DNA of 41,597 nucleotides from Candidatus Poribacteria bacterium (GCA_016215705.1 JACRIR010000240.1:1-41597); one strand, 5' to 3'. Shown: positions 9,927 to 39,451, counted from the first letter of the stretch. A program made the numbers and translations. The notes: generated by a model from the sequence alone, not told the origin.

Positions 9927-10982
9927 CTATGCCAGCCCACGTTCCTGCTTCACTTTCTTTGCCAAAACGCTGCAATCGGCAGGAGGAGCGGCGACACCGG
10001 GATGTTTATCGAATGAGATTGCTTCGGCCGGGCAGCGCGAGACACAGAGACCGCAGCCGATGCACCTCGCCGGGTCAATCTCCATGACGCTTCCTCCATT
10101 CTTGATTGCGTTTATTTGGCAGCGCTCCAAACATGTGCCACATGCTGTGCAGAGTTCGGGATCAATAGTGGCTTGGTAGCCTGACTGGAAGTGATCCACG
10201 GGACGGTCTACCCATTGAAGGAGCTTTAGCAAGTGGCAGCAGCATGAACAGCAGCAGCACATACACTGAAATTCCTGGGAGTTGGCAGGAGCAAGCACGA
10301 GCGCCGATTCCTCGGCCAGATTCAGACGCTGAAGAGCTTCCTCAACACTGATCTGTTTTCCCATCCCGTTTTCTATGACATAGCGGGCAACATCGCCAAA
10401 CGAGAAACAAAGTCCTTCCGGTCGGTCGCATTTATGCTCCATGAGAGCATATTCTCTGCGACACATACAGGGAGCTTCGGAGATGAGACTCTGCTTCTTG
10501 ACGAATTCCCGGACTTGGTTGTATGGAGCAACGGCAGGCAATGCATCAAGAGCCGAATCTACAGGAATGACGCGCAACTGCTTGGTCTTGACGGTTGCCC
10601 ATAACATTCCGAGGTGCGGCATATACTGTTCCATGAGTTCCCCGAATTCTCTATCTACTTTGTGCTGGTGAAACTCGAATAATCCGGGCACAAACGGATT
10701 TGCGCGATATAGCGTTTTGCCCTCATCCCGGTATCTGAAAATCAAACCCTCTCTTGCCATATGCTCGAGTTTTTCGGAAATTTCTGACTCGGCTCTTCCA
10801 ACCCGCTTTGCAATAGCAGAGACCTCTTCAAGACATTCATTCAGATGCGGCGTTATTTCCGCCTCGTCGGGCGCAAACAGCTTCCGGAGAATTCTGATTT
10901 CAATTCCGCTGTCGGTTGAAGGAAAGCCTCCTGGCATTCTATCCAAGAACGCGCGAAGCCTTTCGTATACGCAGTCACTCAT
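9927..10982 (-). CDS. Ferredoxin-type protein with winged-helix-like N-terminus and Cys cluster
   Basis: The 351-residue protein has three parts. Residues 1-110 are helical and DNA-binding-like (SAIAKRVGRAESEISEKLEHMAREGLIFRY resembles a winged helix). The middle holds a Cys-rich region (APCMCRREYALMEHKC...GLC) and then the cluster CMCCCCSCCC, eight Cys in ten residues. The C-terminal third is a 2[4Fe-4S] ferredoxin domain (CTACGTCLERCQ and CIGCGLCVSRCP). Related proteins occur in anaerobic deltaproteobacteria, but I know of no defined function. GGAGG lies 10-14 bases before the ATG. It is on the strand of the glycyl radical/corrinoid operon, 240 bases beyond the corrinoid gene. It could reduce the corrinoid protein or feed electrons to the activase. 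Confidence 0.8.
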   Translation of the reverse strand: MSDCVYERLRAFLDRMPGGFPSTDSGIEIRILRKLFAPDEAEITPHLNECLEEVSAIAKRVGRAESEISEKLEHMAREGLIFRYRDEGKTLYRANPFVPGLFEFHQHKVDREFGELMEQYMPHLGMLWATVKTKQLRVIPVDSALDALPAVAPYNQVREFVKKQSLISEAPCMCRREYALMEHKCDRPEGLCFSFGDVARYVIENGMGKQISVEEALQRLNLAEESALVLAPANSQEFQCMCCCCSCCCHLLKLLQWVDRPVDHFQSGYQATIDPELCTACGTCLERCQINAIKNGGSVMEIDPARCIGCGLCVSRCPAEAISFDKHPGVAAPPADCSVLAKKVKQERGLA

Positions 10983-11141
10983 GATCGAACATCCTCCTCG
11001 TCATAATGGGGTCTCCGGCTTGTGTGTCACACGTGAGAACGACAGTGAAAGAAAAGACGAAAAAGCGGAATACTTTCGGTTTTCTTCGTTCATGATCACA
11101 TCCGATTTTGAAGTGATGAACTGCAAGGAAAACCGTCCGAC

Positions 11142-11180
11142 AGGGCCGGGATTGCCACCATGAATAACAATCCCGGCCCT
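11142..11180 (-). terminator. Strong hairpin between corrinoid and ferredoxin-type genes
   Basis: AGGGCCGGGATTG (11142-11154) pairs perfectly with CAATCCCGGCCCT (11168-11180) across a 13-base loop. It lies 42 bases past the stop of the corrinoid gene. On the - strand no T-run follows directly, so it may be a partial terminator or an RNA-stability/processing hairpin that lowers expression of the last gene rather than an intrinsic terminator. Confidence 0.5.
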
Positions 11181-11222
11181 TGTCATGGACATGGGGACGA
11201 GGGGCAACTAATAGACACTGCC

Positions 11223-11861
11223 TTAGAACGCTCCGACGAGTTCTCTTGCCTTGTCAACGGCTGATGCGGCATCGGGCGCAAAGCCGTGGGCGCCTATCTC
11301 ATCCGCATAGCGCTGAGTGACCGGCGCGCCGCCCACAAGGATTCTTACTTTATTAGCCAGACCGGCCTTATGGATGGCTTCGATGGTGGCTCGCATATGC
11401 GGCATTGTCGTGGAAAGCAGCGCCGACATTGCGATAATCTGGGCATTATTGCTTTTAACCGCATCAACGAATCTTGCGTAAGGCACATCTATACCCAGAT
11501 CAATAACCTCGAATCCTGCTCCCTGAAGCATCATCCCTACGAGATTCTTTCCGATATCATGAAGGTCGGCCTTCACAGTGCCGAGCAGTACTTTTGCCAC
11601 CGGTTTGGCGCCCGTTTCGACGAGTTTGGGCTTCAGAATATTGAGTCCGACATGCATCGCCCTTGCCACGACGAGTACTTCAGGGAGAAAAATCTCGTTC
11701 GCCTTGAATCTTACGCCGATCACATCCATCCCGGCTATCAGCCCTTCGTTGAGAATTTGCTGGGGCGAAAACCCGGTCCTAAGCGCCTGCGTGGTCAGTG
11801 CGTTCACTGTCTTCACATCTCCTTTTTGGAGCGCATCGGAAAGTCTTTTTAGATCACTCAT
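11223..11861 (-). CDS. Corrinoid (B12-binding) methyltransferase protein
   Basis: The 212-residue protein has the two-domain layout of MtbC/MttC/MtaC-type corrinoid proteins. A four-helix N-terminal cap (residues 1-90) precedes a Rossmann-like B12-binding domain. The signature D-x-H-x-x-G is Asp99-x-His101-x-x-Gly104 (KADLHDIGKNLVG), and His101 would be the lower cobalt ligand. SALLSTTMPHM and VGGAPV complete the pocket. The length is normal. A GGAGG site precedes the ATG. It is encoded 56 bases after the methyltetrahydrofolate methyltransferase gene and would carry methyl groups from the UroD-type methyltransferase to that enzyme. Confidence 0.93.
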   Translation of the reverse strand: MSDLKRLSDALQKGDVKTVNALTTQALRTGFSPQQILNEGLIAGMDVIGVRFKANEIFLPEVLVVARAMHVGLNILKPKLVETGAKPVAKVLLGTVKADLHDIGKNLVGMMLQGAGFEVIDLGIDVPYARFVDAVKSNNAQIIAMSALLSTTMPHMRATIEAIHKAGLANKVRILVGGAPVTQRYADEIGAHGFAPDAASAVDKARELVGAF

Positions 11862-11917
11862 TGCATATTCCTCCTCTTGCTATGAAGCAAGCGCCGCTTC
11901 AGCACAATCATTCTTGC

Positions 11918-12730
11918 TCATGTTTCCAGCTTATTGTTTCTGTATGCCGCGATATAATCCTTGCAATATTCGTCAAGTCCCAACAGAGTCGTGGCCGTTA
12001 TGAGATTTGCCATCATCTGTTTGTCCAACGGATCGAAGATGACGGCATCAAGACCAGCCGCCATAGCCATCACCAGGAATGTTCGGTTCATCAGTTTTCT
12101 CACCGGCAGACCGAAGGAAATGTTGCTAAGGCCGCAGACGATATGGACGCCGGAAAATCTCTTATGAATCTCTTCGATGGTCTGCAAAGCGACGACTCCG
12201 CTCCTTTTGTCCGTGCTGACCGCCATGACAAGCGGGTCAACATAAATGTTAGTCGGCTTGATGCCGTTCTTGACGAGATTGTTCACAAGCCTGGAACCGA
12301 CGCCGATCTTGCCATCCGGCTCCGACGGGATGCCCTCGTCGTCAAGGCAGAGCGCGACGACTTTGCAGTCGTACTCTCTGATGATCGGAAGAAGGGAGGA
12401 AAATCTTTCCTTTTCGGCGGAAATCGAGTTGACCATTGCCGAACCGCCGCAGATGGCCAAAGCTTCCCTCACTACTTCTGGGTCGGAGCTATCAATGCAC
12501 AATGGAGCATCGCCTGCCGCCATAACGGTTTCGATGACCCATTTCAGGTTGGGCCACTCCTTTTCAGCGAAAGCGCCTGCGTTGACATCAATAAAATGAG
12601 CGCCCGCTTGAAGCTGTTTCCTTGTTTCGTCTCGAATAAATGCCGTGTTCTTTTCTTCGATCGCCCTTGCAATCGGTTTCCGGGAGGAGTTTATCCGTTC
12701 TCCTATAATGGTGATATTGGACACATTCAT
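11918..12730 (-). CDS. Methyltetrahydrofolate:corrinoid methyltransferase (MtrH/CmuB/AcsE-type)
   Basis: The 270-residue protein has the pterin-binding (dihydropteroate synthase-like) barrel: GERINSS at the N-terminus, then AGAHFIDVNAGA, a CIDSSDPEVVREAL strand and VNSISAEKE, all typical of enzymes that exchange methyl groups between methylcobamide and tetrahydrofolate. The size matches AcsE and CmuB. Its ATG overlaps the stop of the upstream Cys-pair gene as ATGA, so the two are translationally coupled. With the corrinoid protein and the UroD-type enzyme it forms a complete three-part methyl-transfer module that would deliver methyl groups to one-carbon metabolism. Confidence 0.9.
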   Translation of the reverse strand: MNVSNITIIGERINSSRKPIARAIEEKNTAFIRDETRKQLQAGAHFIDVNAGAFAEKEWPNLKWVIETVMAAGDAPLCIDSSDPEVVREALAICGGSAMVNSISAEKERFSSLLPIIREYDCKVVALCLDDEGIPSEPDGKIGVGSRLVNNLVKNGIKPTNIYVDPLVMAVSTDKRSGVVALQTIEEIHKRFSGVHIVCGLSNISFGLPVRKLMNRTFLVMAMAAGLDAVIFDPLDKQMMANLITATTLLGLDEYCKDYIAAYRNNKLET

Positions 12731-12972
12731 TTATGCGTTTTCCCTAAATGGTCAAGTGAGGTTCCACAGCAACGGGGCGCAGTGGAGCCGCCATTCTTGG
12801 ATTTCCCCTCCCGGGTCCCTTGCGATGTAGCTTCGGTATTGGAACCACAGCATTCGGACGAAGATGTGCCTTGCGTTTCCTCTTTGATTTCTTCAATACG
12901 GACTGAGCAGCAACTGCTTTTGCCGGCTCCAAAGAGGCGGCTCAAAAGTCCTTCCTTTTTGTTTTCAGTCAT
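12727..12972 (-). CDS. Small protein with three Cys-Cys pairs
   Basis: The 81-residue hydrophilic protein has three vicinal Cys pairs (GKSSCCSVRIEEI, SSECCGSN and APRCCGTS) in a Ser/Thr/Gly/Lys-rich, probably disordered chain. There is no signal peptide or membrane segment. AGGAGG lies ten bases before the ATG, and the stop overlaps the next start (ATGA). I recall similar short Cys-pair proteins next to ArsP-type permeases; that is recall, not a search. The pairs could bind a soft metal or metalloid such as As(III), or act as a chaperone for the permease encoded upstream. No function is proven. Confidence 0.8.
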   Translation of the reverse strand: MTENKKEGLLSRLFGAGKSSCCSVRIEEIKEETQGTSSSECCGSNTEATSQGTREGKSKNGGSTAPRCCGTSLDHLGKTHK

Positions 12973-13088
12973 CAGTTAATCCTCCTGATTATCTGTGTTC
13001 CGGCCCATTTGCCGCATGTATCCAGTTTCCTCTTCACAGGACTTCCTTTTCGCAATAACTTTGCCCAGACGGCATGTGCTGCATTATT

Positions 13089-13973
13089 TCAAATCAGATT
13101 GACCGCCAAGCCTGTAATGACGGCTATAAGGAAAACACCACAAACCAGGGCAGCCACCAGACGGGTTTTGAATATGCTTGCTAACATGGTCATTTCCGGA
13201 ATTGCCATACCGGCGCCCCCAATGATCAATGCAATCACTGCTCCTGGACTCATTCCCTTTTTGACTAACGCCAGCCCGATCGGGATGGCCGTTTCCGCGC
13301 GGATGTATAACGGAATGCCAACTAGGGCCGCGATAGGAATGGCAAAGGGGTTCTTGGGTCCCGCCAGTTTTACGATAAACTCCTGGGGGATGTACCCATA
13401 AATTACGGCTCCCGCCGCTACACCGATAACAAGATAGATCAAAACTGCCCGAAGGTCTCTCCACGCTTGCCGAAATGCTTCCCTTATTTTGGCTGCAAAT
13501 GTGACAGCATGGAATGAATCGTCGAGGTTGCCGCTGACACGCACGTTCTTGACATAGCCGGCAAAGCCGCTTTTCTCGAGGAAAAGCCCGCCGATGATTG
13601 CCGCCGCAAAAGTCGTGAGCGCATACGCCATGCTGATGCGCCAACCAAGCATTGCCGTCATTAAGCCAAGGATAAGCGGGTCAAGAATCGGTGACGCCAG
13701 AACGAAAGACATCACGGACCCGAACGGCGCCTTGGCTTTGAGCAACCCCACCGTCACCGGAATTGTTGAGCATGCGCAGAAAGGTGTAACGGCCCCAAAC
13801 AGCGCGCCGAGAAAACTTCCCTTTACTCCTTTATGCGATAGCCAGAATCTAAGTTTTTCGTCGGAGATGAATTGCCTGATCAGCCCGATGAGAGCACTGA
13901 TTCCGAGAAACAACGACGTCAGCTCCGTCATTATGTAGCCGAAGAATTTGAGAGTATCCACAAGAGAGTTCAT
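13089..13973 (-). CDS. ArsP/DUF318-type permease
   Basis: The 294-residue protein is an eight-helix-type membrane permease of the DUF318 family. The signature TPFCACSTIPVTVGLL (Cys66 and Cys68) matches the TPFC-x-C-S-x-IP motif of ArsP, an exporter of trivalent methylated arsenicals; other members move Cu, Zn or unknown solutes. A second repeat motif (GIPLYIRAETAIPIGLALV) mirrors the first half. It is encoded between the UroD-type methyltransferase and the Cys-pair gene in the same direction. In this setting it may export a toxic methylated product or import a substrate; which one cannot be told from sequence. Confidence 0.85.
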   Translation of the reverse strand: MNSLVDTLKFFGYIMTELTSLFLGISALIGLIRQFISDEKLRFWLSHKGVKGSFLGALFGAVTPFCACSTIPVTVGLLKAKAPFGSVMSFVLASPILDPLILGLMTAMLGWRISMAYALTTFAAAIIGGLFLEKSGFAGYVKNVRVSGNLDDSFHAVTFAAKIREAFRQAWRDLRAVLIYLVIGVAAGAVIYGYIPQEFIVKLAGPKNPFAIPIAALVGIPLYIRAETAIPIGLALVKKGMSPGAVIALIIGGAGMAIPEMTMLASIFKTRLVAALVCGVFLIAVITGLAVNLI

Positions 13974-14029
13974 AAGAAATATCTTTCGACTCCATTTTCA
14001 CGTGTTTTCGCTCGAGAGACCGGTGTCTG

Positions 14030-14078
14030 CTCCTTGAATTGGGGACACCATGCGGCATGGTGTCCCCAATTCAAGGAG
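14030..14078. repeat. GGGGACAC-family palindrome, copy 3
   Basis: A perfect 49-base palindrome has 24-base arms around a central G at 14054. The core reads TTGAATTGGGGACACCATGC. It ends four bases from the stop codon of the UroD-type gene, inside the operon and upstream of the permease gene. The transcript would form a very stable hairpin there. Confidence 0.9.
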
Positions 14079-14081
14079 AAA

Positions 14082-15254
14082 TCAGGAATAATACCCGAAT
14101 TTCTTCACCGAATCGAGCATCGCCTTGACATTTTCCGGGCGGGCATTGGGGGCCACCTCGCAGCCTGCGGCCAATATGAAGCCGCCACCTTTGCCGGCTT
14201 TCTCGATAAGCTTCTTGCAGTATTCGGTCACTTCTTCCTTGCCGCCGAATGCGAGCATCGAGGCAGGCACATCGCCGAAGATGCAGCAGTGACCGCCGAT
14301 GATTTCTTTCGCCCGGAATATGTCTGTCCTGCCGTCGAATTGCAGGACCACTTTCCCTTTGGGAAGCTCGTACAGGTATTCCAGGTTCTTATTCCAGTTG
14401 CCATCGCAGTGGAGGAAGGGGGTGACCCCTCTTTCGACGAATCCGTTCACGATTGCTTTCAGCGATGGAAACGCATGCTGCTCAAACTGCTTCGGCGAAA
14501 CGAAATCGTTTGAAGTGCGGTGGCAAAATACAAGCACGCGGCGAACACCGGTTTTCTTTGTAAGCCAGTCGCCGACTTTTACATATCCTTTCGAGAGCGC
14601 CAGAGAGACTTCGGCGAGTGGCCCGGGATTATCCATGAGATCGTAGGAAAAACTTACCAATCCACGCGACATCGAGAGCGTGTCAAAGGGGGCTTCCATG
14701 CAGATTCCATGCTGGACGGCCACATCGCGCGCCTGCCATCTCTTGAACTCCTCGCGCCACACGGGAATCTGCTTGAGCATTTTTCGGATGATCCGTGTCT
14801 TGGCAAAGATTCCTTCTCCCTGTTGCTCCCGCTGCACGCGACATGCAAGTGTTGACAGGAAATTGATGTACTTCAGAAACGTAGTCGGCGTTTTGCTGCG
14901 CGCGAAGGTGAGATATTCATCCGCCGACATGATTTCTTCTTCGATGACCTGATTTATTTCATCGGGCGGCAGGTCGAGGCCGGCAAGTTTCATTTTCATT
15001 GGAAGGATAAACATGTACGCTTCCGGACTTATGGGATTGATTGGATAGTATATGTCCCAAGGTCCAAGCTCGTTGAAGCACTTATTGATTGCGAACTCAT
15101 ACTTCTTCATATCCGACCACAGTTCGTGAACCGTGATGTTTGCGTAGTAAGCGGCAAAATAGTAGATCATCGGATCAACCGGCACGCGATCTGGCACGCC
15201 GAGTCTTATCACAGTTTGAAGCCGCTGCTCGGCTGTCATGGTATCTTTCGGCAT
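14082..15254 (-). CDS. Uroporphyrinogen-decarboxylase-family methyltransferase (MtaA/CmuA-type)
   Basis: The product has about 390 residues and belongs to the URO-D superfamily branch used for corrinoid-linked methyl transfer, not haem synthesis. It has the N-terminal MTAEQRLQTVIRLGVPDRVPV, a His-Cys motif FLHCDGNW, and the C-terminal AAGCEVAPNARPENVKAM, where His and Cys are likely Zn ligands. Such enzymes move a methyl group between a thiol or other substrate and a corrinoid protein. ATG 15254 has AGGA nine bases upstream; ATG 15263 is an alternative. With the separate corrinoid and MtrH-type proteins it resembles chloromethane methyltransferase CmuA/CmuB split into parts. The methyl donor is unknown. 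Confidence 0.87.
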   Translation of the reverse strand: MPKDTMTAEQRLQTVIRLGVPDRVPVDPMIYYFAAYYANITVHELWSDMKKYEFAINKCFNELGPWDIYYPINPISPEAYMFILPMKMKLAGLDLPPDEINQVIEEEIMSADEYLTFARSKTPTTFLKYINFLSTLACRVQREQQGEGIFAKTRIIRKMLKQIPVWREEFKRWQARDVAVQHGICMEAPFDTLSMSRGLVSFSYDLMDNPGPLAEVSLALSKGYVKVGDWLTKKTGVRRVLVFCHRTSNDFVSPKQFEQHAFPSLKAIVNGFVERGVTPFLHCDGNWNKNLEYLYELPKGKVVLQFDGRTDIFRAKEIIGGHCCIFGDVPASMLAFGGKEEVTEYCKKLIEKAGKGGGFILAAGCEVAPNARPENVKAMLDSVKKFGYYS

Positions 15255-15379
15255 TATCGGCATTCCTCTCTTACTGCATTCTCAGGGTTGAGTCTTCTCA
15301 CATATGGCCGCACGAAGGGCATCAGCACAGGTACGCGAAGCGAGTCTTCCAATAGCCCCCATTTCATCAAGAATCGCCT

Positions 15380-15769
15380 TCACCTACCTCGCCAAAGCAG
15401 GACAAGCATCATCGTTCCCGCGCCAAATGCCCATAAGTCAACGACAATCATGACGAGCATCATGGGATCAAGGCTCTTGTACATACCATGCTGCAGATGG
15501 AAGGCCACATCGAGAAAACCCATATGAATCAATGCAGCGGCCGCTGCAATGCCTGCCAGCCTTCCCCAGTCCCATCCCAATAGGACCCCGATGCCACCGA
15601 CGATAGCCATAAGTCCCATCCACCCATCAGCCCAGGTAGCAGCCTGTTGGAGGTCGCGATATGCCGCCGGATGGTTCGGATGCAGTGGATAGCCCGCCAA
15701 GGCTATTTTGATGTAAAAAAGAGTGTTTCCAATACCTGTTAACAACAACATAATCACAGCCGGTTTCAT
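15380..15769 (-). CDS. Small four-helix membrane protein
   Basis: The 129-residue protein has four predicted membrane helices: residues 2-23, about 43-62, 66-88 and 103-125. Polar, His-containing loops (YPLHPNHPAAYRDLQQ and HLQHGMYKSLDP) lie between them. I do not recognise the family. ATG 15769 (MKPAVIML) was chosen because GGAGGGAGTGGAGAG lies directly upstream; an ATG at 15793 would add eight residues. It sits between the activase and the UroD-type methyltransferase genes and is transcribed with them. It might help substrate entry or scaffold the pathway at the membrane, but nothing in the sequence proves this. Confidence 0.78.
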   Translation of the reverse strand: MKPAVIMLLLTGIGNTLFYIKIALAGYPLHPNHPAAYRDLQQAATWADGWMGLMAIVGGIGVLLGWDWGRLAGIAAAAALIHMGFLDVAFHLQHGMYKSLDPMMLVMIVVDLWAFGAGTMMLVLLWRGR

Positions 15770-15836
15770 CTCTCCACTCCCTCCGATTTGCACTTATCTT
15801 TTCCGGCTCTCGCTGGAAGCGCTGAACAATCGGCGC

Positions 15837-16781
15837 CTAGCGGGCGGCAATCTCACCTTCGACGGATCTCGCATTGATTCCTTCTTGCGAAAACATGTCA
15901 ATGACCGAGAGCAGTTCTTCGCTTGTGAGAGGCTTCTGCAGTTCAGCCGGAGGAGAATCTCTTCTTCCGAGCCACGAGAGTTTCGTCACCCAATTCTCGT
16001 GATACGGGCAGAGCCCTATCTCTCTTACACCCACTTTCTTGAGAAACACGCCGATTTCGCTAATGTTGGCCTTGTTCGCAGTCATTGACGGGACAACCGG
16101 CAGCCGGAAATCAACCGGCGCCCTGCATTCAACCAGCATCCGCGCATTCTCGAGTATCTGTCGGTTGTCGGCGCCGGTGAGACGCTGATGCTCGACCGAA
16201 TTGATGATCTTGAGGTCAAAATAAATCCGGTCGAGATACGGAAGGAGTTTCCTGAGATTGTCTGATGCAGCCAAACCGTTCGTCTCGATCGCAGTATTGA
16301 GGCCGGCTTCCTTGCATGCCTTGAGGAACGCAAGAGTGAAATCAAACTGCAGCGTGGGCTCGCCGCCTGAAAGGGTGACGCCGCCTCCGGACTCTTCATA
16401 GAAGGCGGCGTCGCGTTTCACTTCTTCCAACAGCTTCGAGATAGAGTACCGCTTGCCGACCGCAAACATTGCTCTTGAAGGGCAACCTTCGGCGCATGCT
16501 CCGCACGCAGTGCAACGGCCGCGATCTATCCTGTCAGCGTTGTCAAACATTATCGCGTCCGCCGGACAGGCTTTCTGACAGGTTCGGCATCCGATGCATC
16601 GTTCCGCCCTGAATCCGATCTCCGGCGCAGGACTAATTGATTCGGGATTCTGGCACCACCTGCAACTGAGGGGACACCCTTTGAGGAAGACTGTGGTGCG
16701 AATGCCGGGACCATCGTCCAGCGAGTAGCGCTGGATATCCAAGACGAGACCGGTCATATCATTTTCAGGATGAACATCCAA
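15837..16781 (-). CDS. Glycyl radical enzyme activase (radical SAM)
   Basis: The protein has about 314 residues. The radical SAM motif C-x3-C-x2-C is Cys36, Cys40 and Cys43 (KGCPLSCRWCQNPES). An inserted ferredoxin domain (CIGCRTCQKACP and CTACGACAEGCP) would bind two more 4Fe-4S clusters, as in activases of non-PFL glycyl radical enzymes. GGVTLSGGEP is the usual SAM-binding glycine motif. I place the start at TTG 16781 because a perfect AAGGAGG lies seven bases upstream; ATG 16757 is an alternative. It directly follows the second glycyl radical enzyme gene. It should install the glycyl radical on one or both of those enzymes, since no other activase is present. Confidence 0.93.
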   Translation of the reverse strand: MDVHPENDMTGLVLDIQRYSLDDGPGIRTTVFLKGCPLSCRWCQNPESISPAPEIGFRAERCIGCRTCQKACPADAIMFDNADRIDRGRCTACGACAEGCPSRAMFAVGKRYSISKLLEEVKRDAAFYEESGGGVTLSGGEPTLQFDFTLAFLKACKEAGLNTAIETNGLAASDNLRKLLPYLDRIYFDLKIINSVEHQRLTGADNRQILENARMLVECRAPVDFRLPVVPSMTANKANISEIGVFLKKVGVREIGLCPYHENWVTKLSWLGRRDSPPAELQKPLTSEELLSVIDMFSQEGINARSVEGEIAAR

Positions 16782-16808
16782 AGTTATGACCTCCTTGAAA
16801 TACAATTA

Positions 16809-19202
16809 TCAGCATCCGCAGATTTCACTGCGCGCGATGATCTCTTCCTGTGTGGCTTCCGTGAGTTCCACGAAGCGGGCGCTGTAACCGGTCACCCGAA
16901 CCAGTAAATCCTCATACTTTGCGGGATTTTTCTGGGCGTCTCGCAACGTCTCGGTATCAACGGTTGAGATTTGCAGATGCTGTCCGCCAAGTTTGAAGAA
17001 GTAGGCCTTGAGCAGCGAAATGAACGCCTGAACCCCCTGTTCGGTATCGAACATCTTCGGGCTGTAGCGCTGGTTGTATGACGAGCCGCCGGCCATTTTT
17101 GTGAAATCCATAGCGCAGACCGATTGCATGGATGCCGTCGGACCCTCTTTATCCATGCCGGACGTGGGACCGCAGCCGGGACTCATCGCCTCGCCCGCGT
17201 GCCTGCCGTCGGCCGAGGCCGCCACCATTGAGCCCTGATATATGTGGTGCGCTTCGGTATGCATTGACAGCACATGAGCTCCGCCGCGACTCGTTTTGGG
17301 CTGGCTCAGCAGGAGTTCGTCCGTGAAGTCAACAAGGTCCTTGGCAATCTCGTCCGCCCTGGAATCGCACGTTCCAAATTTAGGGGCATGGTTGCGAAGC
17401 GCCTGACGTTCCTCTTCGTTGTATTCAAAATCGGTTTTGAGCCAGCCTACGACTTCATCCAGCGTGTGAGACTTCTTCGTATACACAACGTCTCTTATCG
17501 CCGCCAATGAGTCAATCAGGGTGCCGTTGCCGACGAGCGCGATCCCGCTCGCGTTATTGAGCGCTCCACCCGCCTTGACATCCTTGCCGCGCTCAAGCGA
17601 GCCCGGTACGAGCGGGGAAAGCACGGGGTTGGGCAGGTCGCGTCTTTGTATGTCGCCTACCAGTCGGTATTGCGAAAAGGCCCGCTCCAATACGGACCGA
17701 TAGTAGTCTTTGAAGGCGGCATAGAAATCTTCCCATGACTCATACTCTGGAGAGGGCATGTCTGCGTCGTCACCGGCAAGCGAGAGGATCGGCTTGCCGC
17801 CGTTGAGAAACATTTCCAGGATTTTCGGCCCATTAAAGAAGACCGAGCAGCTCGGGCCGTACATGTTGCCGCTCAAAGGCTGTATGCAGCCGGTGAGAAC
17901 ATAATCCCGGGCGTCTTCGACCGGAACCCCGACACGCGTGAAACTTTCGACGATGACGTTGTCGTTGAATACCTGCACAACGTTGGAGCCATTGGTCATT
18001 ACTTCGCCTACGGCCTGGAAGAAGGACTCGGGAGTGTCCGGATGCAAGCGAATGGTTACGCTCGGATGAAGGAGTCTTACTGCATCCGCCGCATCCAGAA
18101 AGACGTAGGAAAGCTCGTTTGTGGCGTCTTTGCCGTCTCTGTCTACTCCGCCCAGAGTGAGGTCGAATCTGGTGGAATTGCCGTCAACAACTCTTGTAAT
18201 GACGTATTCGCCAAGAAAGACGACCTGGTTGAATCTAACGAAGAGCTCATCGATAAACTCCTGAGCATCTTCGCGGGAAAGTCGCCCTTCTTTGACATCA
18301 CGCCGATAGAACGGATACAGATATTGGTCTATTCGAGCCCCGGGAAGCTCCATGGGCATGTCCATCTGCTGCAATCCGCAGAAGGTGAACCAGAATGACT
18401 GCACTGCCTCACGGAATGTGCGCGCAGGTTTTGCCGGCACTTGCGCGCATATCTCGGCGATTTCACGAAGTTCCTTTGCGCGTTCTTCCGACGGCGCAGT
18501 CCGGGCCATCTCACTTGCCAGCCGGGAGTGCCTTTTTGCAAGTTCAATGACGCCTTCGGCTGCGATAATTACGGCTTTGTAAAACGCTCGCTTGTCCTCG
18601 GCCTCCGGGCCACCGTTGGAAACACCCGCCAGGCGCGCCTGCGCTTCGCCGATGATGCCCTCGTAGCCGTTTTCAAGAACCTTGCGGTAGTCTACGTAAG
18701 AGAGGCCGGTGCTTCCCTGAAAATCGTTGAACGGAATGATCGCCAGATTCCGCACGAGAAAATCTGTGTCCTTATCCAACTGCTTCGCCCACTTGTCGAA
18801 TCCGCTGGTCCCGTCCCAAAACGGCAGGATATCTTCACGCAGCTCTCTCTTTTCCTCGTCCGTGAGTTTGAACTGCATAGACGTCCGCTCGTTGAAATTG
18901 TCGAGTTCTTTGATTAGGCCATCGCTCTTGAGCTCAGGATACAGCGCTGAGCCCTTGAATTTCTCGGTGCTCTTGCCGACAATCAACTCACTATCGGAGA
19001 TATCTATGGGGAGCTTCTTGAGTGTTTCTCTGACACCAAGCGCAAACTGAATGATTCTCGGAAGATCACGGTTGTTCCGAATGGCGTTGGTTACTTCGCG
19101 AACGCGCACTATTCCGAGTTCGCGAGGAGCGTCAATCACGCGCCTGCGCATGTGCTGAAGCCTTTGTGATAAGGCTCGTCGCTGTTTTGTGATGGTCGTC
19201 AT
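16809..19202 (-). CDS. Glycyl radical enzyme 2 (GCIQP variant)
   Basis: The 797-residue protein is a full-length pyruvate formate-lyase-like glycyl radical enzyme. The radical site is Gly772 in RVTGYSARF. The catalytic Cys is Cys439 in LTGCIQPLSG. In many eliminases and decarboxylases of the family (for example choline TMA-lyase) the residue two after Cys is Glu, the general base; here it is Gln441. An extra Cys452 (YGPSCSVF) follows. The chain ends in Cys-Gly-Cys, which is unusual. It is a diverged paralogue of the protein encoded at 20067-22508. GGGAGG precedes the ATG. Its substrate is unknown; loss of the base suggests a different reaction or a non-eliminating role. Confidence 0.92.
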   Translation of the reverse strand: MTTITKQRRALSQRLQHMRRRVIDAPRELGIVRVREVTNAIRNNRDLPRIIQFALGVRETLKKLPIDISDSELIVGKSTEKFKGSALYPELKSDGLIKELDNFNERTSMQFKLTDEEKRELREDILPFWDGTSGFDKWAKQLDKDTDFLVRNLAIIPFNDFQGSTGLSYVDYRKVLENGYEGIIGEAQARLAGVSNGGPEAEDKRAFYKAVIIAAEGVIELAKRHSRLASEMARTAPSEERAKELREIAEICAQVPAKPARTFREAVQSFWFTFCGLQQMDMPMELPGARIDQYLYPFYRRDVKEGRLSREDAQEFIDELFVRFNQVVFLGEYVITRVVDGNSTRFDLTLGGVDRDGKDATNELSYVFLDAADAVRLLHPSVTIRLHPDTPESFFQAVGEVMTNGSNVVQVFNDNVIVESFTRVGVPVEDARDYVLTGCIQPLSGNMYGPSCSVFFNGPKILEMFLNGGKPILSLAGDDADMPSPEYESWEDFYAAFKDYYRSVLERAFSQYRLVGDIQRRDLPNPVLSPLVPGSLERGKDVKAGGALNNASGIALVGNGTLIDSLAAIRDVVYTKKSHTLDEVVGWLKTDFEYNEEERQALRNHAPKFGTCDSRADEIAKDLVDFTDELLLSQPKTSRGGAHVLSMHTEAHHIYQGSMVAASADGRHAGEAMSPGCGPTSGMDKEGPTASMQSVCAMDFTKMAGGSSYNQRYSPKMFDTEQGVQAFISLLKAYFFKLGGQHLQISTVDTETLRDAQKNPAKYEDLLVRVTGYSARFVELTEATQEEIIARSEICGC

Positions 19203-19237
19203 TTCATAACCTCCCTCTTATTCGAATTTCGTGTTAT

Positions 19238-19963
19238 CTATATTTTTTCCATGAGTCTTCCGGCTTTGGCCTTTTGTCTGGCCATGAACAGAGGACCGTG
19301 ATCCACCTTCTTCGTGTCTATTACGAATTGCAGCGCTTTGCGCGCTTCGTCTTTCTTGCGGCGGGAAATCTCCAGTTCGGCATACGAAATCGCGGCAACC
19401 GGGCAGGCTGGCGCAAGCTCACGCGCCCGTGTAAGATGTTCGAGCGATTTCCTCTTGTTGCCGATGCCGATTGGCCTCGGCGGGGAGAGACGATACAGAT
19501 TCCCGAGCACCTGGTGTCCCATCGCACTATTGTATGTTTCGTCCAACTCGACGGCGCGCCTGGCATACGCCGCGATCTTTGGAAGATAGTGCAATATGCT
19601 CATAATGCCTTCTTCCTGACCATGAATACCCAGCATCGCCGATGCCCACGCGTTGGCCCAAACATTGCCTTCGTCGAATTCCAGCGCCTTCTTTGCCAGG
19701 TCAGCGCCCTTTTTCGCGAATTCTCTTCGCGCCTTGCTGCCTTCCGGCGCATACTCGTAATGCCAGAATTCAACCTGGGCCAGATAAGCGTATATCCGCG
19801 ACTTAATAGCGGGATCGGACACCTTCTTCAGAGTTTCCTGCAAAAGCCTCTCGGCCCTATTCAAGTTGTCGTCCTCTTCCAATACCTCGAAGCAGTGGTC
19901 AACTTTCGCGAACATTTCCGCGAGTTCGGCATCCGTTATTGTGTCTGCAATTGCGCCAGTCAT
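19238..19963 (-). CDS. TPR-type helical protein 2 (TatT-like)
   Basis: The 241-residue protein is all-helical with tetratricopeptide-like repeats (NLNRAERLLQETLKKV, AKKGADLAKKALEFDEGNVWANAW, KIAAYARRAVELDETYNSAMGHQVLGNLYRL, and KSLEHLTRARELAPACPVAAISYAELE). The central GHQVLGNLYRLSPPRPIGIGNK motif resembles the TRAP-transporter TatT-type TPR family. It has no signal peptide. ATG 19963 was chosen because AAGGAG lies seven to twelve bases upstream. It pairs with the glycyl radical enzyme gene just downstream, as its paralogue does with the first one, so each enzyme seems to have its own TPR partner, perhaps a chaperone or binding subunit. Confidence 0.82.
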   Translation of the reverse strand: MTGAIADTITDAELAEMFAKVDHCFEVLEEDDNLNRAERLLQETLKKVSDPAIKSRIYAYLAQVEFWHYEYAPEGSKARREFAKKGADLAKKALEFDEGNVWANAWASAMLGIHGQEEGIMSILHYLPKIAAYARRAVELDETYNSAMGHQVLGNLYRLSPPRPIGIGNKRKSLEHLTRARELAPACPVAAISYAELEISRRKKDEARKALQFVIDTKKVDHGPLFMARQKAKAGRLMEKI

Positions 19964-20066
19964 GTTACTATCTCCTTCTTTTGTTTGGTTGTTGTGGTTT
20001 CCATGCCCGGCTAAGGGCATGCTCTTTTTGCCCTCTACTGATGACTTCTCTTTTTTTCGTCCATAT

Positions 20067-22508
20067 TCATCCGCACGCGCACATTTCCGAGCGCCGGATT
20101 ACTTCTTCCTGCGTTGGCTTTGTCAGGTCGATGAATCGAGCGCTGTAGCCTGCGATCCGAACGAAGAGGTCTTCGTATTTTTCCGGATGCTGCTGCGCCT
20201 TCCGAAGTGTTTCGGTGTCGGCCACCGTAACTTGCAGGTGCTGGCCGCCAAGCCTGAAGAAATAGGTCTTTAGCATGGAAGCGAACTGGCCGACGCTTTC
20301 CTGATTGCTGAAAAGAGTCGGGTTGAAACGCATATTGCACGAAGCGCCGGCATAGACTTTGGTGTAATCAATCGTGGCCATTGAACGAAGCGAAGATGTG
20401 GGCCCCTCGCGGTCCATGCCGGGTGTCGGGCCGGCGCCGGCGCTGAGCATTTCTCCTTCGGGTCGTCCATTCGGCATGGCTGCAACAATTGCCCCCTGAT
20501 ACACATGGTGCGCCTCTGAATGAAGCCCCAGAACCCAAGAACCGTTTCTGTATGTGCGTTTTTCTTTTAACACTTCGTCCATAAAATCGACTATGTCTTT
20601 GGCAATCTCATCCACGTACGGGTCATTGTTTCCGTATTTCGGCAAGTGATTGAGAAGCCTTTGCCTTTCTTTTTCGTAACCGCGGAAACCGGACTTGAGC
20701 CATTCGACTACTTCTTCCAGGTTGTGCTGCCTTTCGTCATAAACGATCTTGCGTATGGCCGCAAGCGAATCCGCAAGAGTTCCAATACCAAGCAAGTCGA
20801 TGCCCAACAGGTTGTAGCGCGCTCCACCCGACTTTATATCCTTGCCGTTTTCAACTGTTCCATCTATCAGGGCAGAAAGAATAGGATTGGGGAGCAACCG
20901 TTTTTGGATTTCACACGCAATATCAAGCGCATCCATTGTTTTTTCCAGTATGGAACGAAGGTAGTCCGTGAATTTTCCATAGAATTCGGCAAATGAACTG
21001 CACTTGGGACTCGGCAAGTCCTGCTCGTCGCCACAAACAGAAATCATGGGTCTTCCACCATTGAGGAACAGTTCGAGTATTTTGGGCCCGTTTATGAAAG
21101 CCGAGCAGGGGGAGCCATACGTGCTCCCCGGTATTGGCTCCACGCAGCCGGTTAAAACATAATCACGCGCGGCTTGAATCGGCCACCCAAGACGCGTAGC
21201 GCCTTTCACCATGACTTCATCATTGAACACGTGCATGACATTCGCGCCATTCGTCATTAGATTTGTCGTCGCGTTTACGAAAGCTTCAGGAGAATCCGGG
21301 TGCAGGCGAACAGCTACGTTCGGGCTTATGAGCCTCATGTTGTTCACGGCCTCCAACGCCAGGTAGGAAAAGGCGTTCGTGGCGTCCTTGCCGTCCTTAC
21401 CCACACCGCCCAGGGTCAGTTCGTACCTCGAAGTGTTGCCGTCATTGACCTTCGTCACGGCGTATTCCCCCAGTATAGTGACCTTATTGAACTTGATATA
21501 AAACTCTTCAAGAAGCTCCAGCGCTTCGCTGCGGGTCAAGCCGCCCTCTTCAACATCACTGCGATAATATGGATAAAGATACTGATCCACACGGCCGAGA
21601 GGAATCTCTTGCCCGACGTCCAGTTGGGCTATTCCGATGAAAGTGAGCCAGACCGCCTGCAAGGCTTCTTGAAAAGTGCGCGCAGGTTTAGCCGGCACTC
21701 GCTCGCATATCTCGGCGATTTCGCGAAGTTCCTGTGCGCGCTCGTGGGAAGTCGCTCCGGAAGCCGAAGCATGCGCCAGTTGCGAATAGCGGGATGCAAG
21801 CCCAATCACACCTTCCGAGGCAATGATTACGGACGTGTAGAAACTTTTTTTCCCTTCCCTTTCGGGGTCGTCGCTTTCGATTCTCGCCATTGCCGCCTTG
21901 GCTTCGTCTATGATGCCTTCGAATCCTTTCTGAAGGACTTTCTCATAATCAATATGGGCCAGGTGATTGGCGCCATTGAAATCGTTCTGGATCACGATCG
22001 CGATATTATCGACGAGAAAATGTATGTCTTCACTCTGACGGGACATCATATCGTCGAATGCGCTTTTGTTCTTCCAGAAGAGCAGGATTTCTTCTCGAAG
22101 CTCTCTCTTTTCTTCGTCAGTGATTGAAAAGCGCAAAGTCTCGCGCTCGGTGAAGTTCTGAAGTTCGGCAATCAAGAAATCGCTCTTGACCTCCGGATAC
22201 AGAACCGCACATTTGGTTTTCTCGCCATGCGCGCCGGCAATGCGCTCATCATCAGAAATTGAGATCGGAAGTTTGCGCAGGGCTTCTTTCATCCCCAGCG
22301 CGAGCTGAATCGCCCGCGGCCTGTCCGGATTCTGCTTCACAGCCTTGGTCACTTCGCGTGCGCGCACAAGACTTATCTCTCGAGGGGCCCGAAGCACTTG
22401 TTCCCGCATCCGTGCAATCCTCGGCGACAAATCGCCGCGAGCGGCTACCGCTGCGGATATCAGTTCGCTGTCATCGATCGCGGATTTACGGCTGGCTGTT
22501 GTTGTCAT
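20067..22508 (-). CDS. Glycyl radical enzyme 1 (GCVEP type)
   Basis: The 813-residue protein is a full-length glycyl radical enzyme of the PFL-like superfamily. The radical site is Gly787 in RIAGYSARF. The catalytic Cys455 lies in LTGCVEPIPG with Glu457 two residues on, as in C-N, C-O or C-S cleaving lyases and aryl-acetate decarboxylases. Tyr464 and an extra Cys468 follow (GSTYGSPCSAF). The C-terminus ends in Cys-Ala-Cys-Gly. The N-terminal 60 residues match those of the second paralogue (APREISLVRAREVTKAVKQN). AAGGAGG precedes the ATG. The substrate cannot be named; the methyl-transfer genes downstream suggest a methylated leaving group. Confidence 0.93.
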   Translation of the reverse strand: MTTTASRKSAIDDSELISAAVAARGDLSPRIARMREQVLRAPREISLVRAREVTKAVKQNPDRPRAIQLALGMKEALRKLPISISDDERIAGAHGEKTKCAVLYPEVKSDFLIAELQNFTERETLRFSITDEEKRELREEILLFWKNKSAFDDMMSRQSEDIHFLVDNIAIVIQNDFNGANHLAHIDYEKVLQKGFEGIIDEAKAAMARIESDDPEREGKKSFYTSVIIASEGVIGLASRYSQLAHASASGATSHERAQELREIAEICERVPAKPARTFQEALQAVWLTFIGIAQLDVGQEIPLGRVDQYLYPYYRSDVEEGGLTRSEALELLEEFYIKFNKVTILGEYAVTKVNDGNTSRYELTLGGVGKDGKDATNAFSYLALEAVNNMRLISPNVAVRLHPDSPEAFVNATTNLMTNGANVMHVFNDEVMVKGATRLGWPIQAARDYVLTGCVEPIPGSTYGSPCSAFINGPKILELFLNGGRPMISVCGDEQDLPSPKCSSFAEFYGKFTDYLRSILEKTMDALDIACEIQKRLLPNPILSALIDGTVENGKDIKSGGARYNLLGIDLLGIGTLADSLAAIRKIVYDERQHNLEEVVEWLKSGFRGYEKERQRLLNHLPKYGNNDPYVDEIAKDIVDFMDEVLKEKRTYRNGSWVLGLHSEAHHVYQGAIVAAMPNGRPEGEMLSAGAGPTPGMDREGPTSSLRSMATIDYTKVYAGASCNMRFNPTLFSNQESVGQFASMLKTYFFRLGGQHLQVTVADTETLRKAQQHPEKYEDLFVRIAGYSARFIDLTKPTQEEVIRRSEMCACG

Positions 22509-22541
22509 CGGTTTCCTCCTTTTGATGAATGCGCCATCAGT

Positions 22542-23258
22542 CTAAAGCTTCGCTAGAATGTCCCTTGCCCATTGTTTCATGTTTTCAGTGTAGATCGGCC
22601 CGCGGACTATTGTTTTCTGATTCAACACATGATCCGCCTCCTGCCGGGCTTTATCCTTCTCGCGAATACTGAAATATGCCTCGGCGAGGCGGAGCTTCGC
22701 CTGAGGATCATTCGGGGATAGTTCGTTGGCGCGAAGCAAATGCTCCACGGCCTTTTCTTTGTCACCGAAGGCAACCGGCGGCGGCGGTGTAAGCCTGTAA
22801 AGGTCTCCCAAAACCTGATGCGCTCCCCCATTCATATATGATTCATCCAGTTCAACTACTCGCTCCGCGCATTCCTTGATCTTGTCCATATAGAACAATG
22901 CGCTCAGAATGCCCATCTCCAGGCCGTGGACGCCCATAAGGAGCGCCGCCCAGTAGTTGGCGTACAGGTTGTTCGAATGGAGCTCCAGCGCCTTTTGGGC
23001 TAATCCGACGCCTCTTTCGGCTATTGCAAGGCGTTCTTCTTCCGGAGCGTAGTAGTGACGCCAGAATTCCGCTTGCGCCAGCATCGCATAAGCTCGCGCC
23101 AAGAGGGAAGCGTCAGTGATTCTTTCCCTGAGGGGCGTGAGCATAGCTTCTGCCTTGTCAAGATTGCCGTCCTCCTCGCACTGCTCAAAGAATCTGTCAA
23201 CTTCGACAAAGACTGCTTCGAGTTGTGAATCCGCGCCTGTCCTCGCCGCCTCACTCAT
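22542..23258 (-). CDS. TPR-type helical protein 1 (TatT-like)
   Basis: The 238-residue protein is a paralogue of the TPR protein at 19238-19963, with the same order of helices and the shared motif GAHQVLGDLYRLTPPPPVAFGDKEKAVEHLLRA (quoted in parts: HQVLGDLYRL, then PPPVAFGDKEKAVEHL). It has no signal peptide, so it is predicted to be cytoplasmic. ATG 23258 (MSEAARTG) is the start, because a perfect AAGGAGGG lies seven bases upstream. It is the first gene of the operon and follows a leader of about 257 bases. Its pairing with the downstream glycyl radical enzyme suggests a dedicated accessory or binding protein, but that role is inferred only from position. Confidence 0.82.
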   Translation of the reverse strand: MSEAARTGADSQLEAVFVEVDRFFEQCEEDGNLDKAEAMLTPLRERITDASLLARAYAMLAQAEFWRHYYAPEEERLAIAERGVGLAQKALELHSNNLYANYWAALLMGVHGLEMGILSALFYMDKIKECAERVVELDESYMNGGAHQVLGDLYRLTPPPPVAFGDKEKAVEHLLRANELSPNDPQAKLRLAEAYFSIREKDKARQEADHVLNQKTIVRGPIYTENMKQWARDILAKL

Positions 23259-23505
23259 CTTGATTCCCTCCTTGACCATGTTGATTCTCTTCCTGACCGC
23301 TCTCTTCAAGAATTCAGTTTGATGCTTCGTGCTTTCCCGTCACGCCTAGCGCACATCGGTACTGAATTTTCCTCTCTTCTTCCGGTGCTTCCGCTCTTGT
23401 GTTTTCCTTGGCTATGTGATACAGTTCCGATTGAGTAGGCGAACCTCCCAAGCAAGAAACCACGACAGGCCGCTAGGAGGCTAGGGTCTTTCGGTTTAGT
23501 TATTG

Positions 23506-23524
23506 ATTTCATACATGCGTAATT
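23506..23524 (-). promoter_or_regulatory. Putative TetR operator O2 over the operon start site
   Basis: Read on the - strand the site is AATTACGCATGTATGAAAT. It matches the palindromic site at 23665-23683 at 15 of 19 positions. It overlaps the -10 box (23522-23527) and the predicted start near 23515, where a bound repressor would block transcription. Confidence 0.6.
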
Positions 23525-23550
23525 ATACCATACTCCAATCTGTTTGTCAA
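23522..23550 (-). promoter_or_regulatory. Consensus sigma-70 promoter of the glycyl radical operon
   Basis: On the - strand TTGACA (23550-23545), a 17-base spacer and TATAAT (23527-23522) match the sigma-70 consensus perfectly. Such a strong promoter would need a repressor to be off; the TetR-like gene next to it fits that role. The predicted start is near 23515. Confidence 0.85.
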
Positions 23551-23664
23551 TACCCAGTGGATATGTGGCATAATTCTCATGAATGTGCTATAATTAGGCA
23601 AATCTGGATTGTCCTTGACATCGTAAATGGAGCAGTGTTTCGAAGAGAAGTGAAGCAATATTAA

Positions 23665-23683
23665 AATTACATGTGTATGTAAT
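23665..23683 (+). promoter_or_regulatory. Putative TetR operator O1 upstream of tetR
   Basis: AATTACATGTGTATGTAAT contains a perfect inverted repeat (ATTACAT, four bases, ATGTAAT) ending 23 bases before the regulator's start codon. The position suits autorepression. The related site at 23506-23524 suggests one protein binds both. Confidence 0.65.
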
Positions 23684-23706
23684 AAATAACTCAAGGGGGC
23701 CAATCC

Positions 23707-24300
23707 ATGCCGAAGGTCGTAAATCATAAGGACCGACGCGAGAACGTCGCCGAGGCCACTTGGCGTGTCATCGCCAAACAGGGAATCGAGACGACTACTA
23801 TAAGAGAGATCGCGAAGGAAGCTGATTGCTCCACGGGAATGCTTCAATACTATTTCAAGAACAAAGATGAGTTGATACTTTATGCGCTGCAGCTTGCCGT
23901 GTTGCGGATGGGCGGACGCATGTGGAAAAGAGGAGAGGAGTCGGCAGGAACCCAGATACTGAGGAACGTAGTCATCGAGTCACTTCCGCTTGATGAGGAG
24001 CGCCGATTGGAATGGCAAATCTTGGCGGTATTCTATGGACGGGCGGCAACCAGCACAAAGATGGCGGAAGAGTGTGATCTGTGGTACACAGACTACCGTA
24101 GCCTGCTACGGGGACTCATTACCAATGGAAAGCGAGACGGGCATTATCGAATGGAGATAGATGCGGCGACCGAGGCAGACGCCATAATATCGCTTGTCGT
24201 CGGGATCGGCGTTCTGACCATCATCAAACCTCGTCATTTCACTTCTGAGTTCCAGCTCGAATTGATGGATCGGCATCTTTCAACGTTGCTCACCAGGTGA
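23707..24300 (+). CDS. TetR-family transcriptional regulator (BetI-like C-domain)
   Basis: The 197-residue protein has the TetR helix-turn-helix at residues 10-57 (AEATWRVIAKQGIETTTIRE, then IAKEADCSTGMLQYYFKNKD). Its C-terminal ligand domain resembles the BetI-type group (LEWQILAVFYGRAA; DAIISLVVGIGVLTIIKP). BetI itself senses choline, but the domain is shared by many regulators and does not fix the ligand. An AAGGGGG site lies before the ATG. It is divergent from the glycyl radical/corrinoid operon, and two matching operator-like sites lie between them. It is the likely substrate-sensing repressor of both transcripts. Confidence 0.92.
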   Translation: MPKVVNHKDRRENVAEATWRVIAKQGIETTTIREIAKEADCSTGMLQYYFKNKDELILYALQLAVLRMGGRMWKRGEESAGTQILRNVVIESLPLDEERRLEWQILAVFYGRAATSTKMAEECDLWYTDYRSLLRGLITNGKRDGHYRMEIDAATEADAIISLVVGIGVLTIIKPRHFTSEFQLELMDRHLSTLLTR

Positions 24301-39075: not shown

Positions 39076-39451
39076 GGCTCAGATGATTGGTATCGTTTTC
39101 TTTTCCACAGTTTTTTCAACGTGGCTCAGCCTACACCAAACGACGCACGTCGGGCGTGATGAATCGCGCCTCAGAAAATCGGGAGCGGCAATGCAGATTA
39201 TCACGGATTTTCATATTTTGCAATCGTATCGGCGCGCATGCAGGATTGGGCCGACCTTGTTCCATTGACGAGTGAGTTGACGCCGCATCGCAGAAAGGGA
39301 TATTATGGCGTGGCTCAGCCGAGGAAAGAAGGTTGCTTTCCTCCGGCCTGCAGCCCTTCGCTCGCAATTACCGGCTCGATGCGGAACCGACGAGATTCAG
39401 GACAGGGATTCAGAAAGACGTGGGAAATACTGCGACCATTGGAGTAAAAGG
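39076..39451. other. Divergent intergenic region
   Basis: This 376-base gap separates the ABC ATPase gene from the S55 peptidase gene. It holds a small hairpin (GAGGAAAG at 39321-39328 with CTTTCCTC at 39336-39343) without a T-run. Frames through it are open in part but lack ribosome sites and family features, so I call no gene. No clear promoter was found by eye. Confidence 0.5.

Follow-up and report, generated by a model that had tools for sequence, protein, structure and literature searches.

Two glycyl radical enzymes and a corrinoid methyl-transfer module in a likely operon of a Candidatus Poribacteria bacterium

Glycyl radical enzymes (GREs) and corrinoid demethylases are two main means by which anaerobes open inert bonds. 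In a stretch of 41,597 nt of Candidatus Poribacteria DNA (here referred to as the window), genes for both lie side by side, which raises the question of whether the two chemistries serve one pathway, and in which order they would act. A sequence-only reading of this locus had proposed an undescribed operon in which the radical cleavage of a methylated compound is followed by methyl transfer to tetrahydrofolate. All of the genes that it listed on one strand were recovered on the minus strand by domain and profile searches, and no account of an operon combining GREs and corrinoid methyl transfer was found in a search of mainly open-access literature. The gene block is considered real and its combination new.

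The block (9927-23258) comprises 12 genes in the same direction, namely, from the 5' end, TPR1, GRE1, TPR2, GRE2, an activase, a four-TM-helix (4-TM) protein and a UroD-type methyltransferase (MTI), followed by a PF03773 permease, a protein with three Cys-Cys pairs (CC-pair protein), a second methyltransferase (MTII), a corrinoid (B12) protein and a 2x[4Fe-4S] protein (Table 1). The 11 intergenic gaps measure, in gene order, 33, 103, 35, 27, 67, 116, 108, 116, -4, 56, and 240 bp, and a clear ribosome-binding site is present before most of the genes. The promoter upstream of TPR1 is the region's only site with all 12 positions matched, and the TetR gene is read divergently from a promoter of its own. 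Terminator-like sites inside the block are weak on the minus strand (total count of 12 versus a shuffled mean of 17.9), and co-transcription of the 12 genes is likely as judged from this layout. By chance, about 0.07 UroD genes would be expected within 10 kb of a given GRE (8 GREs and about 18 UroD candidates in a 5.47 Mb genome), an estimate in which the corrinoid protein, the partner and the single strand are not yet required. An operator common to both TetR promoters was considered and dropped, the sole match being 11 bases long and overlapping a -10 box. An Rfam search of the window gave no match, and thus no known cobalamin riboswitch. A SpoIVB-type S55 peptidase domain (PF05580) is encoded at 39305-41293 of the window.

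Table 1. Features of the gene block and its upstream region, in gene order; the starts of TPR1 (23258), TPR2 (19963), the activase (16781) and the 4-TM protein (15769) were revised by ribosome-binding site.
Feature	Coordinates	Strand	Details
TetR regulator, BetI-type C-terminal domain	23707..24300	+	PF13977 61.8 bits (cut-off 27), PF00440
Sigma-70 promoter TTGACA-17-TATAAT	23522..23550	-	12/12 matches; upstream of TPR1
TPR1, TPR/TAtT-like helical protein	22542..23258	-	PF16811 38.1 bits; PF14559
GRE1, glycyl radical enzyme	20067..22508	-	Cys455-x-Glu457, Gly787, plus Glu301, Cys468
TPR2, TPR1 paralogue	19238..19963	-	44% identity to TPR1
GRE2, glycyl radical enzyme	16809..19202	-	Cys-x-Gln instead of Cys-x-Glu
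Radical-SAM glycyl radical enzyme activase	15837..16781	-	CxxxCxxC + two 4Fe-4S sites; TIGR02494 322.7 bits (cut-off 174)
Small membrane protein, ~4 apparent TM helices	15380..15769	-	No family; weak DoxX_2, E 0.0083
UroD-type corrinoid methyltransferase (MTI)	14082..15263	-	Putative Zn ligands His285, Asp287, Cys368; CdmB 9rui E 2.6e-28
PF03773 (ArsP_1) permease	13089..13973	-	178.4 bits (cut-off 32.3)
81-aa protein, three Cys-Cys pairs	12727..12972	-	No family match
Methyl-THF:corrinoid protein methyltransferase (MTII, MtgA/CdmA/AcsE-like)	11918..12730	-	PF00809; PRK07535 335.7 bits (cut-off 259)
Corrinoid protein, DxHxxG motif	11223..11861	-	DLHDIG; matches 1y80, E 6e-63
Cys-rich 2x[4Fe-4S] protein, N-terminal winged-helix-like part	9927..10982	-	Likely electron carrier

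The corrinoid module had been called complete, which holds for the three components of a corrinoid demethylase, i.e., MTI, the corrinoid protein and MTII, all present together in the block, but not for an ATP-dependent reductive activator, as none of the RACo/RamA type was recognised within the cluster. Three genes with the RACo domain PF14574 are located elsewhere in the genome, one of them inside a CODH/ACS operon. The profile matches of MTII correct its earlier description as MtrH-type to the MtgA/CdmA/AcsE type, and its nearest solved proteins are 4o0q (E 6e-58) and 4o1e. Since the genome elsewhere encodes a complete CODH/ACS operon that includes an AcsE of its own, methyl-tetrahydrofolate has an outlet in the Wood-Ljungdahl pathway, and the corrinoid protein, MTII and CODH/ACS together give good support to methyl transfer to tetrahydrofolate.

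In MTI, the motifs LHCDG and AAGCEVAP supply His285, Asp287, and Cys368 as putative ligands, which align with the zinc-binding positions of MtaA-type enzymes, and the same His-Asp-Cys set is common to its five nearest homologues in other loci. The nearest solved protein, the Acetobacterium chloromethane methyltransferase CdmB, belongs to a branch that holds the O-demethylases MtvB, OdmB, VdmB, and MtoB; the two are distant, however (102 bits, mostly in the C-terminal half), and His-Asp-Cys is missing from CdmB. According to Kountz and Balskus, S-methyltransferases have His-Cys-Cys, whereas O-methyltransferases have carboxylates or non-ligands for one or both Cys (PMC10418091). By alignment, MTI follows the latter pattern, with a carboxylate in place of Cys. 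Because of this set and the published ligand comparison, the predicted substrate is favoured to be O-methyl rather than S-methyl, the zinc-ligand rule being a published generalisation that is applied here to predicted ligands.

Membership of the GRE superfamily follows for GRE2 from its PFL-like and Gly_radical Pfam domains, and for GRE1 from a PFL-like match in the genome search together with the aligned Cys455 and Gly787. The two are 55% identical, and contig C250 of the same genome carries a further copy, GRE3, with 58% identity to GRE1. A TPR protein precedes each of the three and was found at no other fetched GRE locus. Glu301 and Cys468 (GRE1 numbering) occur only in GRE1-3 among 55 aligned GREs, and the residue two positions after the catalytic Cys, which is Glu in GRE1 and in 44 of the 52 other sampled GREs, is Gln in GRE2 and GRE3 and in none of those 52. 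All three carry a C-terminal CxC tail; the GREs of two relatives (L103:8296-10749 and L105:7823-10261) have CC-containing tails akin to it (GGGCCS and QGSCCG). When aligned with glycerol dehydratase and CutC, Glu301 corresponds to Ser282 and Cys468 to Asp447/Thr502, the latter being diol-binding positions. Given these replacements, the substrate of GRE1-3 is probably not a plain diol of the known kind. The match of His182 of GRE1 to the substrate-binding His/Asp of glycerol dehydratase and CutC hinges on a one-residue gap, and an AlphaFold model of GRE1 made from four sequences is poor overall (mean pLDDT 55) and of low confidence at the active-site loop.

GRE1 resembles the eliminases CutC, glycerol dehydratase, and HpsG in its Cys-x-Glu, Gly radical motif, and PFL2-class activase, and differs from them in Glu301, Cys468, the TPR partner and the CxC tail, with identities outside the subfamily not exceeding 38%; in GRE2 and GRE3, Gln is an additional difference from eliminase GREs. 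GRE1 and GRE2 score 491 and 484 bits against CutC (TIGR04394, cut-off 1050), at most 508 bits against HpsG/HpfG, i.e., (2S)-3-sulfopropanediol dehydratase (NF048011/NF048009, cut-off 1000), and 483 and 497 bits against HypD, the trans-4-hydroxyproline dehydratase (NF043068, cut-off 1100). GRE1, GRE2, and GRE3 reach none of the curated GRE equivalog cut-offs and, judged by sequence, make up a new subfamily. A further two GREs in this genome (L097:1608-4139 and L098:8232-10721) pass as HpsG with 1185 bits each, which suggests sulfonate use.

The order of the two chemistries may be weighed from these features. A GRE might first cleave a methylated compound, as CutC does with choline, and the UroD enzyme then demethylate the small methylated product. 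In favour of such an order, the closest solved structures include CutC and further eliminase GREs, Cys-x-Glu is retained in GRE1, and the TetR regulator has a BetI-type C-terminal domain. BetI is a choline sensor, and the domain hints weakly at an inducer of the onium type, but TetR_C_6 is a broad family. Furthermore, the operon shows neither MttB, which trimethylamine would require, nor MtaB, which methanol would require; methanethiol favours His-Cys-Cys, whereas MTI has His-Asp-Cys; and both GREs fall well short of the CutC cut-off. Radical cleavage as the first step is therefore regarded as rather unlikely. The radical-first order needs a methylated leaving group that is acceptable to a His-Asp-Cys UroD enzyme; demethylation first and a radical step second fits better. 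Thus, methyl transfer to tetrahydrofolate is retained from the sequence-only reading, while its radical-first order is less supported in view of His285-Asp287-Cys368.

Neither order gives the permease and the CC-pair protein a good place, and a metal or metalloid may be involved. In such a route, a GRE would cleave an arsenocholine-like compound, the corrinoid module would demethylate the methylated metalloid, the ArsP-like permease would export it and the CC-pair protein would carry it. This would account for the permease and CC-pair genes, for the extra active-site Cys and Glu of the GREs and for the BetI-type regulator. Yet PF03773 is broad and takes in Cu/Zn exporters, no arsenic gene was found in the operon, and no such pathway was found in the literature search, making this organometalloid route highly improbable. 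As for methylarsenite transport of the ArsP kind, the permease can be placed only in the broad family PF03773: it lies under every NCBIfam equivalog cut-off, with SO_0444 and SaoE the best but far below theirs. Permease neighbourhoods elsewhere contained no methyl-transfer genes. The 351-aa 2x[4Fe-4S] protein, which matches no named family, has homologues at 12 or more places in the genome and at many in relatives, and was rejected as a pathway marker for being one of a large paralogous family.

Conservation of the neighbourhood in relatives, on which the sequence-only reading had staked its proposal, was not found in the sampled genomes. When about 35 GRE loci and 11 UroD loci were fetched and compared with the window proteins by phmmer, a GRE never occurred with TPR, UroD, corrinoid protein, or MTII, the sole exception being the TPR-GRE3 pair of the same genome. 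The two family-level relatives that were compared (G001 and G002) keep UroD orthologues with 68-71% identity, and a paralogue in the genome itself (G000, contig C67; L085:9697-11979) is 73% identical to MTI; none of these three copies has a GRE or corrinoid gene alongside. A linalool dehydratase/isomerase-like gene (PF18566) lies close to the C67 paralogue. Neither of the two relatives has the GRE subfamily. Outside its own genome, nothing exceeded 38% identity in a search of 98 genomes, the best match to a GRE profile across 386 genomes reached 624 bits versus about 1600 for the profile's own members, 82 further genomes gave none at 1e-185, and a short-peptide scan across 84,980 species yielded two relatives with 27-32% identity; matches on plasmids were all below 60%, and viral contigs gave none. 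Among the sampled genomes, a limited set from a sparsely populated lineage, the subfamily and its TPR partners were thus found solely in their own genome. The lack of a conserved neighbourhood counts against the proposal only for these genomes, because the absence of the GREs differs from their being unlinked and sampling is thin.

These distributions bear on whether two independent pathways, a radical unit (TetR-TPR-GRE) and a methyl-transfer unit, were joined in one operon in this genome only. Contig C250 (L029:7430-13535) resembles the present block in its paralogous TetR (254 bits), which adjoins GRE3, and in its TPR-GRE pair, and differs from it in having DmsA/DmsB-like molybdopterin oxidoreductase genes instead of the activase and methyl-transfer genes. 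No obvious membrane subunit and no activase were seen beside the DmsA/DmsB-like genes. A radical unit free of methyl-transfer genes on C250 and UroD orthologues free of GREs in three places would be expected if the units were separate, and third-position GC is lower in the 2x[4Fe-4S] and corrinoid genes (0.54-0.56) than in GRE2 (0.65). In opposition are the 12 genes on one strand, their short gaps, the single strong promoter and the lack of a strong internal terminator, and two unrelated pathways are deemed unlikely, though a serious contender. A joint function of the GREs and the methyl-transfer genes is plausible.

The explanation preferred here, tentatively and with less than even confidence, is a catabolic operon, induced by its substrate, for the breakdown of a methoxylated hydroxy compound. 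The genes, their motifs and, elsewhere in the genome, CODH/ACS were observed; from these we infer every step of the pathway. The TetR regulator would sense the substrate, the zinc enzyme MTI would move its O-methyl group onto the corrinoid protein, kept reduced by a RACo encoded elsewhere in the genome, and MTII would hand the methyl group to tetrahydrofolate, from which it would enter the Wood-Ljungdahl pathway. GRE1, acting like a dehydratase or eliminase via Cys455, Glu457, and Gly787, would turn the hydroxy compound or diol left after demethylation into an aldehyde or ketone, and GRE2, which lacks the Glu, may carry out a second, different radical step. One activase would serve both enzymes, the TPR proteins would be their dedicated partners, and the permease and CC-pair protein may assist in transport or in metal handling. 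This explanation is consistent with the tight block with its perfect promoter and divergent regulator, with the eliminase-type Cys-x-Glu and Gly of GRE1, and with the TPR-GRE pairing, of which the genome has three instances, one of them outside the block and with a paralogous TetR. Against it are the lack of conservation in sampled genomes, the Glu301 and Cys468 replacements that argue against a familiar plain diol, the reliance on a general zinc-ligand rule, the permease and CC-pair protein that an ether substrate leaves unexplained, and the counterpart of the substrate-binding His in GRE1, which varies with alignment.

Among known systems, CdmBCA and the MtvB/OdmB/VdmB/MtoB systems are alike in encoding a UroD-type MTI, a small corrinoid protein and an MtgA/CdmA-type MTII together, and the Wood-Ljungdahl pathway is common to CdmBCA-type systems and this genome; here, by contrast, the activator lies outside the cluster and two GREs lie inside the operon. 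Type 1 mlp clusters of anaerobes likewise combine UroD-family methyltransferases and a corrinoid protein, and are defined by Mlp2 and Mlp3 with His-Cys-Cys, a corrinoid protein and Ram/RACE (PMC10418091). Membership was rejected, as the operon has a single UroD gene with His-Asp-Cys and no Ram/RACE, and in addition contains MTII and GREs.

It is conceivable, albeit doubtful at present, that the GREs form a new subfamily, marked by Glu301, Cys468, the TPR partner and the Gln variant, and perform novel radical chemistry on an intermediate, be it methylated or demethylated, in the first pathway encoded by a GRE-corrinoid methyl-transfer operon. An operon uniting GRE and corrinoid chemistry would suggest that some methylated compound is processed anaerobically by a route not yet known, and the unusual active site of the GRE subfamily offers a well-defined place to look for a new radical reaction.
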